Positions 9,550 through 50,248 of a stretch of DNA of 50,248 nt are shown here, in pieces. Source of the DNA: an archaeon. GTDB lineage: Archaea; AGJL01; Methanococci; Methanococcales; Methanocaldococcaceae. Below the pieces are notes generated by a model. The model searched no databases. It was not told where the DNA came from and saw only the letters and a list, made by a program, of their open reading frames with translations. The first letter of the stretch is position 1. Each line of letters begins with the position of its first letter. Location: positions 1-50,248 of the forward strand of contig JAJRSC010000004.1 in NCBI GenBank assembly GCA_024278985.1, in the 5' to 3' direction. The translations under genes and the position numbers were made by a program.

Positions 9550-9654
9550 GATTTATATACTGAAACATAAATTTTATTCCTGGGGGCAAAAAACCACTAA
9601 TTTTTTATAGCTCCTTAAAATTCTTTAAAAAAACTCTTTTAAAAGGTGGAAAAT
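9550..9654 (+). promoter_or_regulatory. Spacer with probable promoter before uS2
   Basis: A TATA-like box ATTTATATAC lies at 9550-9560, then a G-rich island CCTGGGGGC around 9581-9589, then an AT-rich stretch and the strong ribosome binding site AGGTGG (9644-9649) for ATG 9655. The G-rich island is unusual in this AT-rich spacer and may be near a transcript start or end; this cannot be decided from sequence. Confidence 0.35.
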
Positions 9655-29949: not shown

Positions 29950-30675
29950 ATGATAAAAGAAATATTTAATTCAATAATGGGAGAAGGGAAATATATAGGA
30001 AGAAGATTTATTTTTTTAAGATTTGATAAATGTCCTTTAAATTGTATATATTGTGATGAAAGTAAAAAAGAATATAAAGGATGTGAAATTTCTCCTGGAA
30101 GTGAAAAATTTAAAAAAATTGATAATAACATAAAAGAAGTTATAAGGTGTATTGAAAATTTAACAACTCCTGACTTATTTGCTGTGTCTTTTACTGGAGG
30201 AGAGCCATTAGTATATTATGAATTTTGTAGAGAACTTAATAGTATACTAAAAAATAAAGGTTATAGAACTTTCTTAGAAAGTAATGGAATATATCCAGAA
30301 AAATTATTTAAGGTAGATATTGCCTCAATAGACATTAAACTTAAAGAACATTTTATTAATATTGATGATAATTTATATAAAATGATATATAATAATGAAT
30401 TAAAAACTATTGAAAAACTTTACAAAATGGGTGTTGATGTTTATGCTAAAATAGTTATTTTAAAAAATACAGATATAAATAATATTAAAAAAATAGCTCA
30501 AGATTTAAGTGAAATAGGAGAAATATTATTATGCCTTCAACCACTCACCCCAATAAACAACCTTCAGCCACCAAGTAAAGAGTTGTTGTTTAAGATAATG
30601 GAAGAGTGTGGAAAATACCTTGGAGATAATGTTATGCTAACAATACAAATGCATAAATATTTGGGGGTTTTATAA
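29950..30675 (+). CDS. queE: 7-carboxy-7-deazaguanine synthase (QueE), radical SAM
   Basis: 241 residues. The radical-SAM cluster motif is CPLNCIYC at residues 28-35; IFNSIMGEGKYIGRRFIFLRF before it is the QueE signature that binds substrate and SAM; FTGGEPLVY follows. The enzyme converts carboxy-tetrahydropterin to 7-carboxy-7-deazaguanine, on the way to archaeosine in tRNA. Other queuosine/archaeosine genes are not in the window. Gap to the next gene (CARF-PIN) is 14 bases, so they are likely on one mRNA. Confidence 0.88.
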   Translation: MIKEIFNSIMGEGKYIGRRFIFLRFDKCPLNCIYCDESKKEYKGCEISPGSEKFKKIDNNIKEVIRCIENLTTPDLFAVSFTGGEPLVYYEFCRELNSILKNKGYRTFLESNGIYPEKLFKVDIASIDIKLKEHFINIDDNLYKMIYNNELKTIEKLYKMGVDVYAKIVILKNTDINNIKKIAQDLSEIGEILLCLQPLTPINNLQPPSKELLFKIMEECGKYLGDNVMLTIQMHKYLGVL

Positions 30676-30689
30676 TAGGTGAGTTTTTT

Positions 30690-32171
30690 ATGAAAATTTG
30701 GATTACAACAGTAGGTTGGAGTCCTTTTGCAGTTTTTAATACTTTATGGTTTGCAATAGTTAGAGACAGTTATATACCTGATAAAATATATTTAATATGG
30801 AATAGTAAAGTAGAGAACAACAAAGAAATAATCAAGAAATATTTAAATGCATTAAATGAATCTTATGGTTTTAATTTAAAAGTAGTGGAGTATAAAATAG
30901 AAAGAGAAGAAAATTTTAAAGAATTTATTAAAGGTTTGTCAGACATTATATTAAAAGAAAAAAAGTATAATAATGAGATTGCAATAGATATAACTCCTGG
31001 AAGAAAATTTATGAGTGCTTTTTCAATGTTTGCTGGTTTAGAAGGTGTATGAAAAGAGAAATATAAATGTGATAGAGTTTATTATTTACATATTGATGAT
31101 ATGAAATATTTAAACTTTCCTTTATATTTAATCCCTTTCTCTATACAAAAGTTATATGAACTAAAAAGCACACTTCTAAACAAAAAGTATAAAAGAGAAC
31201 TCTATAAAATTGATGGTAAAACTAACATAAAGATAAATAGAAAAGAAATTTTAAGTGTTATAAATCACTATTATTTAAAAGATATTTATATATTTAATAT
31301 TTATGTTGATAATATTGAATTTGCTAAAATAACACTTCAAAATAATAACTTGGCAAATATAGAAATCAATAAAGACATTAAAGATATAAATTTAAAGGAT
31401 TATATATTAGACAATAATTCATATATTAACAATATTATTTATTCAATATCTAAGATGAACTTTTATATAGTTGATGAAGACAGGGAGTTAAGTGAAGAAG
31501 AATTTTTTAAATATCTTATTAATAAATTAAAATCAAAAGATACATACTATATAACTTTTGATACTAATGCATTAATCAATCATGTACCAAGGAAGTTAAT
31601 AGAATATTTTGAAAATAGTAGAGAGAGAATAACTCCTAATTTTTTAATATCAAGGTGTGTGATTAATGAGATAACTGAAGATTTTGGAAAAATAAAATAT
31701 TGTAAAGACCAGGATTATATTAACCAACCAAAGCCAAAAGGAAGGCTATTTAAATTAGGACATTCTCAGCTAACTCTTTTACAACAAAAAAATGCAGTAG
31801 TTATTGAGCATGAGGGAAAATTTGATAACAGTATAAGAGACTCTTTAATAAAATATCTTAGAGATAAAAATGGAAAGTTAATATTTATTAGTTCTGATAA
31901 GGACTTCTGTTATAATCTTTCAGGCTATCCTGAGATTGAAACAGTATATGTTAAATTTAATAGAAATAAAAAATATAGTTGGGAGGATGTTAGAGATTTC
32001 CTATATATATCATCAATAATTTTAGGAAAAATTAGAGTCAAATATATGGGGACCATAAAATCAGTTTGGAGAGGAAAAGATATAAATGATTGGAAAAATG
32101 AGAGAGTATATCTTGAAAATACAGATAAACATATTAAAAATATTATAAATTGTTTAAGAAAAATAAACTAA
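30690..32171 (+). pseudogene. CARF-PIN fusion protein, putative CRISPR/type III-linked nuclease, with in-frame TGA
   Basis: Starts at ATG 30690 with GGTGA seven bases upstream. Residues 1-120: CARF domain, first strand MKIWITTVGWSPFAV (TVG loop) and the diagnostic IDITPGRKFMSAF at residues 99-111, which contacts cyclic oligoadenylate in other CARF proteins. TGA at 31050-31052 follows LEGV; the same frame resumes KEKYKCDRVYYLHIDD and continues to 32171, so 493 codons in all. Residues 148-280 are of mixed fold; residues about 285-415 are a PIN nuclease domain with acidic residues in ITFDTNALI (D291), NEITEDF (E327), NSIRDSL (D385) and SSDKDF (D403/D405). The family known in CRISPR type III signalling uses CARF binding to switch on a nuclease. 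The TGA could be a mutated TGG or CGA, or an error. Selenocysteine is unlikely (see rejected list). Confidence 0.75.
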
Positions 32172-32196
32172 CTATTTTTAAGTTAGAGAGATAACT

Positions 32197-32964
32197 ATGT
32201 TGGCAGAAATTTCTGAGAAATTTATATTTATATTGGAAATATTAGATAAATATACTCAGCCTAATAGTGATGAGAAAGTTGTTATTAGGTATCTTATTGA
32301 CTATTTAGAAAAAGGTAATTTGTTGGAGGAGGATATAGAGCCAATTAAGAGTAAGATTATAGAAATAAGTAAAAAATTAGGAAATTATGATTTAAGAAGA
32401 GAAATAGTATATATCTTCTATGATAATAATAAAAAATTAACTAAATCACAAAAAAATAAGATTAGAAAGATTATTGAAATTTTAGAGTTATTGAAGAGTT
32501 ATATAGACAAAAAACCATTTAAGGATTATACTGATAGAGATGCATTAAATATAATAACATTAAAAATTTTAAGATTGGATAAAGGAGTTTTATTAGATTA
32601 TAATACAGAGGTAAGGAGTATATCTAACTTGGCATTAAACATATCTGGCTATGAATTAAAAAATGAAATAGAAAACTTTTTATTAGGCAGAAAAAGAAAA
32701 AAATTATCAGATAATTTCCTACAAAAAAAGAAATTATTATTAGAAACTTTAGAAGAGATAAAAAATTTCATTGAAAAGAAAGAAAATAAAAGTATATTTG
32801 ACTATGAAGCATTATTTTTAATAAATTTAAAGATTTATAGAGTTGAGGAGAATATAATAAAAAATTTTGATGATGAATTTAATAGTTTATTGTCAATTGG
32901 TAGAAAAGTGGGAAACTACAAATTAAGAGAAAAAATTTTATTGATAAAGGAAAGTATAAAATGA
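32197..32964 (+). CDS. Unrecognised helical protein with three internal repeats, in CARF-PIN operon
   Basis: 255 residues. No known domain is recognised. The sequence is nearly all helix and divides into three similar units of about 65-72 residues, at about 9-75, 91-162 and 181-251. Each unit ends in a similar segment: KKLGNYDLRREI, ALNISGYELKNEI and RKVGNYKLREKI. The units 2 and 3 also share IDKKP/IEKKE, then YTDRDALNIITLKILR versus FDYEALFLINLKIYR. There are no cysteines and no catalytic motif. It begins 25 bases after the CARF-PIN gene, with AGAGAG upstream, and lies convergent to uL11. It may be a scaffold or inhibitor of the nuclease; that is inference. Confidence 0.7.
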   Translation: MLAEISEKFIFILEILDKYTQPNSDEKVVIRYLIDYLEKGNLLEEDIEPIKSKIIEISKKLGNYDLRREIVYIFYDNNKKLTKSQKNKIRKIIEILELLKSYIDKKPFKDYTDRDALNIITLKILRLDKGVLLDYNTEVRSISNLALNISGYELKNEIENFLLGRKRKKLSDNFLQKKKLLLETLEEIKNFIEKKENKSIFDYEALFLINLKIYRVEENIIKNFDDEFNSLLSIGRKVGNYKLREKILLIKESIK

Positions 32965-33887: not shown

Positions 33888-34784
33888 ATGCATTTTTTAG
33901 ATTTGGATACCATTGAAAGAGAAGATTTATTAAAAATTCTTAAATATGGAGAACATTTTAAGAAACATAGAAAAAACCATGAAAAATTTTTGGAAAATAA
34001 AAGTTTTGGGATAATTTTTGAAAAACCATCAACAAGGACAAGAATAAGTTTTGACTTAGCAATTCATGAATCTGGAGGACACTTAATAACTTTAAATAAA
34101 AATGAGATACATTTAGGTAGAGAAAGTTTAAAGGATATGGCCAAAGTTTTAAGTAGATACTTGGATGGAATTATAGCGAGAGTATATAGTCATAAAATGC
34201 TTGAAGAACTTGCTAAGTATAGTGAGATTCCAGTTATAAATGCATTATCTGATATTGCCCATCCTTGCCAAACTTTGGCAGATTTATTGACAATTAAAGA
34301 AATTAAAGGTTTTAATATAAAGCTTGCATACTTAGGGGATGGTAATAATGTATGTAATTCTTTAATTTTAGGGGCGTCATTGGTTGGAATTGATATGTAT
34401 GTAGCAACACCTAAAGGTTATGAGCCCAACTCTTACCATGTTTTAAAAGCTTTGGAGAACATAGAGAAATATGGAGAAGGTTCTTTAACTATAACAAACT
34501 CTCCAGAAGAGGCATTAAAAGAGGCAGATGTAATATATACTGATGTATGGGTAAGTATGGGAGATAAAAAAGATGAGAATGAATTAAAATATTTTAAACC
34601 TTTCCAAATAAATAACAATGCTTTAAAATTGGCAAATGATGACTGTATAGTTATGCACTGTCTTCCCGCTGTAAGGGGTAATGAAATAACTGATGATGTT
34701 ATAGATAGTGAGAAATCTGTTATATATCAGCAGGCAGAAAATAGATTACATGCTCAAAAAGGTTTATTAAAGTTCTTATATTAA
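33888..34784 (+). CDS. argF: Ornithine carbamoyltransferase
   Basis: 298 residues. Carbamoyl-phosphate site motif EKPSTRTRISFD (about residue 45), HPCQTLADLLTI and the ornithine-binding C-terminal HCLPAVRGNEI with the invariant cysteine. Makes citrulline in arginine synthesis. GAGGGA is the ribosome binding site. The 3' end overlaps the PIN gene by 9 bp on the other strand. Confidence 0.95.
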   Translation: MHFLDLDTIEREDLLKILKYGEHFKKHRKNHEKFLENKSFGIIFEKPSTRTRISFDLAIHESGGHLITLNKNEIHLGRESLKDMAKVLSRYLDGIIARVYSHKMLEELAKYSEIPVINALSDIAHPCQTLADLLTIKEIKGFNIKLAYLGDGNNVCNSLILGASLVGIDMYVATPKGYEPNSYHVLKALENIEKYGEGSLTITNSPEEALKEADVIYTDVWVSMGDKKDENELKYFKPFQINNNALKLANDDCIVMHCLPAVRGNEITDDVIDSEKSVIYQQAENRLHAQKGLLKFLY

Positions 34785-35171
34785 TCCAAAAACTTCAAAA
34801 TATTTTTTTTGTCTAACAACTAACACAGGAATATTATTTTCTAAGAGTTTCTCTTTAAGTTTTTTATCATTTGTAGCAACAATAACATTTTTATTTTTTT
34901 TGGCATATTCAATTATTGCATCGTCAGCATAACCATTAAAATTAAACTTCTCTACTTTATAATTTTTTATTTTTGATAAAGCTAACTTTATAGCTTTTTT
35001 TTCTTTTCCTTTTAAATCTTTATCCAATAATAATTTTAGTTCTTTCTCAATATGAGGAAGAATAATAACTTCAAACTTAGAATTTAAAGCCCTTTCTAAT
35101 TCATAATCAAAATTTATTTTATGTTTAAATGTATAAATTAAAAAATTAGTGTCTGGAATTACCTTGTAAAT
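34776..35171 (-). CDS. PIN-domain ribonuclease (Fcf1/VapC9-like), apparent ATT start
   Basis: Frame open from stop to stop; a fitting start would be just before VIPDTNFLIYTFKHKI. That is the first PIN strand with aspartate D, followed by LPHIEKELKLLL, and the C-terminal GYADDAIIEYA and IVATNDKKLKEKL acidic motifs. No ATG, GTG or TTG lies in the right place; the ribosome binding site GAGGTGA (minus, 35183-35177) precedes an ATT at 35171-35169 (ATT TAC AAG). From there 131 residues fit archaeal Fcf1-like PIN proteins. The alternative, TTG at 35027, loses the catalytic first aspartate and is less likely. ATT is either a rare start or a changed ATG. No antitoxin gene is next to it. Confidence 0.75.
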   Translation of the reverse strand: MYKVIPDTNFLIYTFKHKINFDYELERALNSKFEVIILPHIEKELKLLLDKDLKGKEKKAIKLALSKIKNYKVEKFNFNGYADDAIIEYAKKNKNVIVATNDKKLKEKLLENNIPVLVVRQKKYFEVFGLI

Positions 35172-47299: not shown

Positions 47300-48778
<1,479 letters not shown>

Positions 48779-48792
48779 CGAGAAAAAATTTT

Positions 48793-48843
48793 GGGGCTGG
48801 TATATGGATATAAGAGGCACCTAAATCCCAGGTCGCGGGCTTG
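48793..48843 (+). other. 3' arm of the 16S rRNA processing stem
   Basis: Complementary to 47206-47256; it starts GGGGCTGGTATATGG and ends CGCGGGCTTG. It lies between 16S and tRNA-Ala. Confidence 0.8.
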
Positions 48844-48853
48844 CCGTAGTAGT

Positions 48854-48926
48854 GGGCCCGTAGCTCAGCTGGGAGAGCGCCGGCCTTGCAAGCCGGAGGC
48901 CGTGGGTTCAAATCCCACCGGGTCCA
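48854..48926 (+). tRNA. tRNA-Ala (anticodon TGC) in the rRNA spacer
   Basis: Acceptor GGGCCCG pairs with CGGGTCC, the anticodon loop CTTGCAA on CCGGC/GCCGG gives TGC (alanine). The T loop is TTCAAAT. The discriminator is A48926; the CCA is not encoded (CTAT follows). tRNA-Ala is the usual spacer tRNA in methanogen rRNA operons. Confidence 0.96.
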
Positions 48927-48940
48927 CTATTTTCATGCAG

Positions 48941-48963
48941 CCCACAACTTTATAAGTTGTGGG
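48941..48963 (+). other. 10-bp hairpin in tRNA-Ala to 23S spacer
   Basis: CCCACAACTT, loop TAT, AAGTTGTGGG; a perfect stem in the leader of 23S. Likely part of spacer processing. Confidence 0.6.
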
Positions 48964-49029
48964 TGAAGGGCCTGATTAAACATGAGGGCCGTGCATAAGC
49001 CCCTACATCCCGGTGAAATCCGGACACTC

Positions 49030-50248
<1,219 letters not shown>

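Follow-up and report, generated by a model that had tools for sequence, protein, structure and literature searches.

Fusions of a CARF domain to a PIN domain were noted in 2014 by Makarova et al., who reported two CARF families with PIN (PMC4012209), and PIN RNases are listed among the cyclic oligoadenylate effectors in a 2021 review (PMC7854544) and in a 2025 classification (PMC12669027). Neither the terms CARF-PIN and PIN-CARF nor a biochemical study of CARF-PIN effectors was found in the literature searched. We analyzed a 50,248-nucleotide stretch (the window) of a draft genome (G000) from Methanocaldococcus, a heat-loving methanogen, in which a first-pass annotation had proposed a possible undescribed defence operon, consisting of a CARF-PIN nuclease and a helical repeat protein behind queE and working without a CRISPR array in the window. 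The CARF-PIN protein is most likely a member of the known, little-studied kind rather than part of a new system. We consider it very probable that its gene encodes a type III CRISPR ancillary effector that has moved off the csm operon and now stands beside two unrelated housekeeping genes.

Three plus-strand genes make up the neighbourhood. The queE-like radical SAM gene (29950-30675), a universal core gene, and the 14-base gap behind it were found exactly where the first-pass annotation had placed them. The CARF-PIN gene follows at 30690-32171 and comprises 493 codons with one TGA read through. The annotation was right about the CARF-PIN frame, but its word "reconstructed" hid that the TGA at 31050-31052 breaks it. 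Translation table 11 therefore yields two ORFs in the same frame. The N-terminal fragment of 120 residues (30690-31052) holds most of the CARF domain, including the TVG loop and the IDITPGRKFMSAF motif, and the C-terminal ORF of 356 residues (31101-32171), which starts at the first ATG past the stop, encodes the end of the CARF domain, a middle region and the PIN domain. After a gap of 25 bases, the 255-residue repeat protein is indeed encoded at 32197-32964. It is all-helical, and its fold model (pLDDT of 90.8) showed 12 helices arranged as three repeats of four. No PDB structure matched this model at E <= 0.001, and no family in Pfam, NCBIfam or PADLOC matched the protein above the cut-off. 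The homologous gene in G024 is split by an inserted ORF of 412 residues (L032:6421-8597). Elsewhere in the window, a minus-strand frame at 34776-35027 was judged by eye to encode a small PIN-like protein (IPDTNFLIY...VIVATNDKKL). Positions 47300-50248 hold archaeal 16S rRNA, a tRNA and the start of 23S rRNA, and these genes explain the 57-62% G+C of the window end.

The identity of both domains was borne out by the PADLOC model CARF_m1--CARF_PIN, which matched on both sides of the stop, with E-values of 1.1e-47 for residues 1-119 and 5.6e-92 for the rest. The former match assigns the N-terminal domain to the CARF_m1 group, and an alignment showed that the TVG loop and the motif named above are kept in the CARF-PIN homologues. 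In the C-terminal domain, D291, E327, D379 and D403 (read-through numbering) are invariant in four homologues. The acidic set given by the annotation thus stands for D291, E327 and D403; position 385, however, is a serine, position 405 is unconserved, and D379 belongs to the set instead. The PIN half also aligned with a split archaeal PIN protein (hhalign P of 96%, E of 1.4e-9), which itself passes the Pfam PIN_4 cut-off. We read the C-terminal domain as PIN because of the PADLOC model, the four invariant acidic residues and this alignment, and the protein is supported as a sensor-nuclease. Against this reading, Pfam and NCBIfam found no PIN domain in CARF-PIN and gave weak CARF matches, including Pfam CARF_Card1 at the N-terminus, and the single-sequence fold model had a pLDDT of 36 and was unusable. 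A marginal CARF match, 3qyf (E of 0.078), was the only relative found among solved structures.

CARF-PIN is present in only four of 36 genomes of the phylum, and the homologues in G002, G016 and G024 are uninterrupted, with identities of 54-56%. In G002, csm1-csm2-csm3-csm4-csm5 lie directly upstream of CARF-PIN on the same strand, with an adjoining CRISPR array. The G024 copy has csm1 ~5 kb upstream, further genes behind csm1, csx1 directly before it and arrays after it; both this copy and that of G002 thus close a type III-A (csm) operon. Also directly preceded by csx1 is the G016 copy, at a contig end. Four more full-length fused copies (G062, G160, G246 and G330) lie ~5-14 kb from a Cas10 gene with the GGDD motif. 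The survey for type III loci that the annotation had proposed detected Cas10 in all eight genomes with fused CARF-PIN (by TIGR02578 in G000, G002, G016 and G024, and by PF22335 in the other four). Placement within or close to a type III locus, a typical but not a defining trait, was seen in G002, G024, G062, G160, G246 and G330, and CARF-PIN lies within ~14 kb of Cas10 in the six genomes with both genes on one contig. Pattern scans for CARF-PIN in collections of genome contigs and viral contigs gave no match, which is weak evidence, as the homology search did find homologues. As a rule, fused CARF-PIN thus belongs to type III systems as an ancillary gene, and the G000 copy is exceptional in its place. 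G002 and G024 come from different families. Their CARF-PIN proteins are 92% identical to each other and their Csm5 proteins 95%; those of G000 and G016 are 54-63% identical to them. The near-identity of the G002 and G024 proteins likely reflects recent transfer of the csm module.

The genome studied here also has a type III system of its own. Its csm1-csm5 genes are located at C12:14108-20120, on another contig than CARF-PIN, which thus lies outside the csm operon. The Cas10/Csm1 protein (E of 1.3e-171) has intact HD and GGDD motifs, and the latter would make it fit to produce cyclic oligoadenylate. Three CRISPR arrays with the repeat GTTAAAATCAGACCGTTGCGGTATGGAAAC were found on three contigs. 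None was found within the window, in agreement with the annotation; the same genome has all three elsewhere. The claim that the locus works without CRISPR is not supported, given this csm1-csm5 set and the arrays, as well as the position of the relatives' copies in csm operons.

The gene order of the window could be read in two other ways. A new CRISPR-independent defence operon, with the CARF-PIN nuclease and the helical repeat protein as partners, agrees with their common strand, the 25-base gap and the lack of an array in the window. However, the repeat protein was found in 13 of 14 Methanocaldococcus genomes, 11 of which have no CARF-PIN, as well as in G016 and G024, with homologues 54-63% identical. 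In G002, G016 and G024, which have both genes, the two lie either on separate contigs or at a large distance from each other, and the neighbourhoods read elsewhere surround the repeat protein with genes for an aminotransferase, Thi4, EMC6, DHH, PurT-like and HemD proteins and other housekeeping functions. The annotation would have given up its operon if no other genome showed the two genes side by side, and among the genomes searched the repeat protein adjoins CARF-PIN only in G000. We regard it as no partner because it is a core gene of the genus and occurs beside CARF-PIN in none of the other genomes read, and a two-gene defence operon is extremely improbable. A shared transcript of CARF-PIN with queE, tied to 7-deazaguanine synthesis, is suggested by the 14-base gap. 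Furthermore, several genomes of one genus carry CARF and PIN as separate (split) genes 2-7 kb away from queE, and in G117 and G258 such split genes and queE are directly divergent. However, all 37 genomes compared have queE, other genes follow it in the relatives whose loci were read (G002, G008 and G012), and the split pairs close to queE are surrounded by housekeeping genes (TIP49, AMMECR1, amidohydrolase and M24). Among 20 fresh loci, several of them on short stretches, queE was closer than 5 kb in none and ~6 kb away in one, and no queE linkage was found in sister genera of G117. The hint from the split pairs thus failed to recur, and searching the literature for CARF together with QueE gave unrelated matches only. 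A functional tie to queE is very unlikely, and the link fails in general; chance, the caveat that the annotation itself had raised, is the best reading of the adjacency. Chance gene order together with a draft assembly can mimic a new operon.

The in-frame stop has more than one possible origin as well. The TGA is codon 121 of CARF-PIN and lies inside the CARF domain; it aligns with the glycine (GGA) of the homologues' SDG loop, where the G000 copy is two codons shorter. A comparison with proteins of relatives revealed ten in-frame stops in G000 over 34,834 aligned codons, a count from which the CARF-PIN stop is excluded, being below the identity cut-off, and to which doubtful ORFs or a divergent end contribute a few (e.g., L073 and L091). 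The control genomes had 0 stops in 8,157 codons (G002), 1 in 10,251 (G024) and 6 in 23,869 (G012, mostly in spurious frames or where ORFs end). In G000, conserved genes carry stops at window positions 9640, 9868 and 18928 and at L080:10370, L090:964 and L081:13842, and the ten also include the stop in csm3. The first two fall in one protein, which is 84% identical to its relative and was read by eye as ribosomal protein uS2. A true pseudogene in a strain with a decaying type III system would fit the stops in CARF-PIN, in csm3 of the type III-A locus (TAA at C12:17406-17408) and in the CARF-like gene adjoining csm5 (TAA at L063:about 675). We consider this unlikely, as the isolated stops also occur in conserved genes unrelated to CRISPR, which weakens decay specific to CRISPR. 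Selenocysteine is known in Methanocaldococcus, and the frame continues for 372 codons past the TGA. However, the homologues carry SDG at this site, with neither cysteine nor selenocysteine, and the comparable stops of G000 include TAA and TAG besides TGA. We rejected the selenoprotein reading because of the SDG in the relatives, and it is extremely improbable. A general Rfam scan of the window at the gathering threshold returned only rRNA and tRNA. A base error of the draft assembly is the simplest cause and appears likelier than either selenocysteine or specific decay because about ten isolated stops are spread across the assembly, as judged from the assembled sequence rather than from reads. 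If the TGA is real, CARF-PIN is dead in this strain.

The csm linkage in relatives, the presence of Cas10 in all genomes with a fused copy, and the csm1-csm5 genes and arrays of G000 itself together argue for a displaced type III ancillary RNase. In the proposed mechanism, the Csm complex, whose genes are on contig C12, would bind target RNA, and the palm domain of Cas10 would then make cyclic oligoadenylate. A CARF dimer would bind this messenger and turn on the C-terminal PIN domain, which would use D291, E327, D379 and D403 together with a metal ion to cut RNA and so slow both the virus and the host. We infer the binding of cyclic oligoadenylate, the activation, RNA as the substrate and the action in trans. 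Besides the results given above against the PIN reading, other observations speak against this explanation. CARF-PIN and csm of G000 lie on two separate contigs. In addition, CARF-PIN is broken as assembled, csm3 and the CARF-like gene also carry stops, and the whole system could have decayed.

The CARF_PIN model also matched adjacent, often overlapping gene pairs in many archaea (L124-L135, L136-L150 and L184-L203), in which the CARF protein has ~140-170 residues and the PIN protein ~330-350. They belong to the same CARF and PIN families as the fused protein but are two genes, mostly in genomes with no detectable Cas10. A Cas10 palm2 match (PF22335 for this set) was present in 6 of 38 split-pair genomes versus 8 of 8 fused-gene genomes, although the genomes are non-independent and some are incomplete, and we offer this contrast as a lead only. 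The split pair might form a two-component sensor-RNase independent of CRISPR, and fusion of its genes might have given rise to the type III effector, or the reverse may have happened; we advance this idea tentatively and with some doubt. As a test of a sensor-nuclease without CRISPR, these pairs, and not the locus at 30690-32171, merit study.

Compared with better-known systems, CARF-PIN resembles the CARF-HEPN RNases Csx1/Csm6 in combining a CARF sensor with a C-terminal RNase as a type III ancillary protein. However, their nuclease is HEPN, as opposed to PIN. Card1/Can2 (CARF-PD-(D/E)xK) also share the CARF sensor, and the weak CARF_Card1 match falls in this part of CARF-PIN, but their nuclease fold is a different one. 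The closest described system is CARF_m1--CARF_PIN (PADLOC PDLC01973), with the same order of two domains, a full-length match and a type III context in the relatives. The G000 copy differs from it in lying outside any csm operon and in having its assembled frame cut by a TGA, and the locus adds one displaced member to the predicted CARF-PIN effector family.
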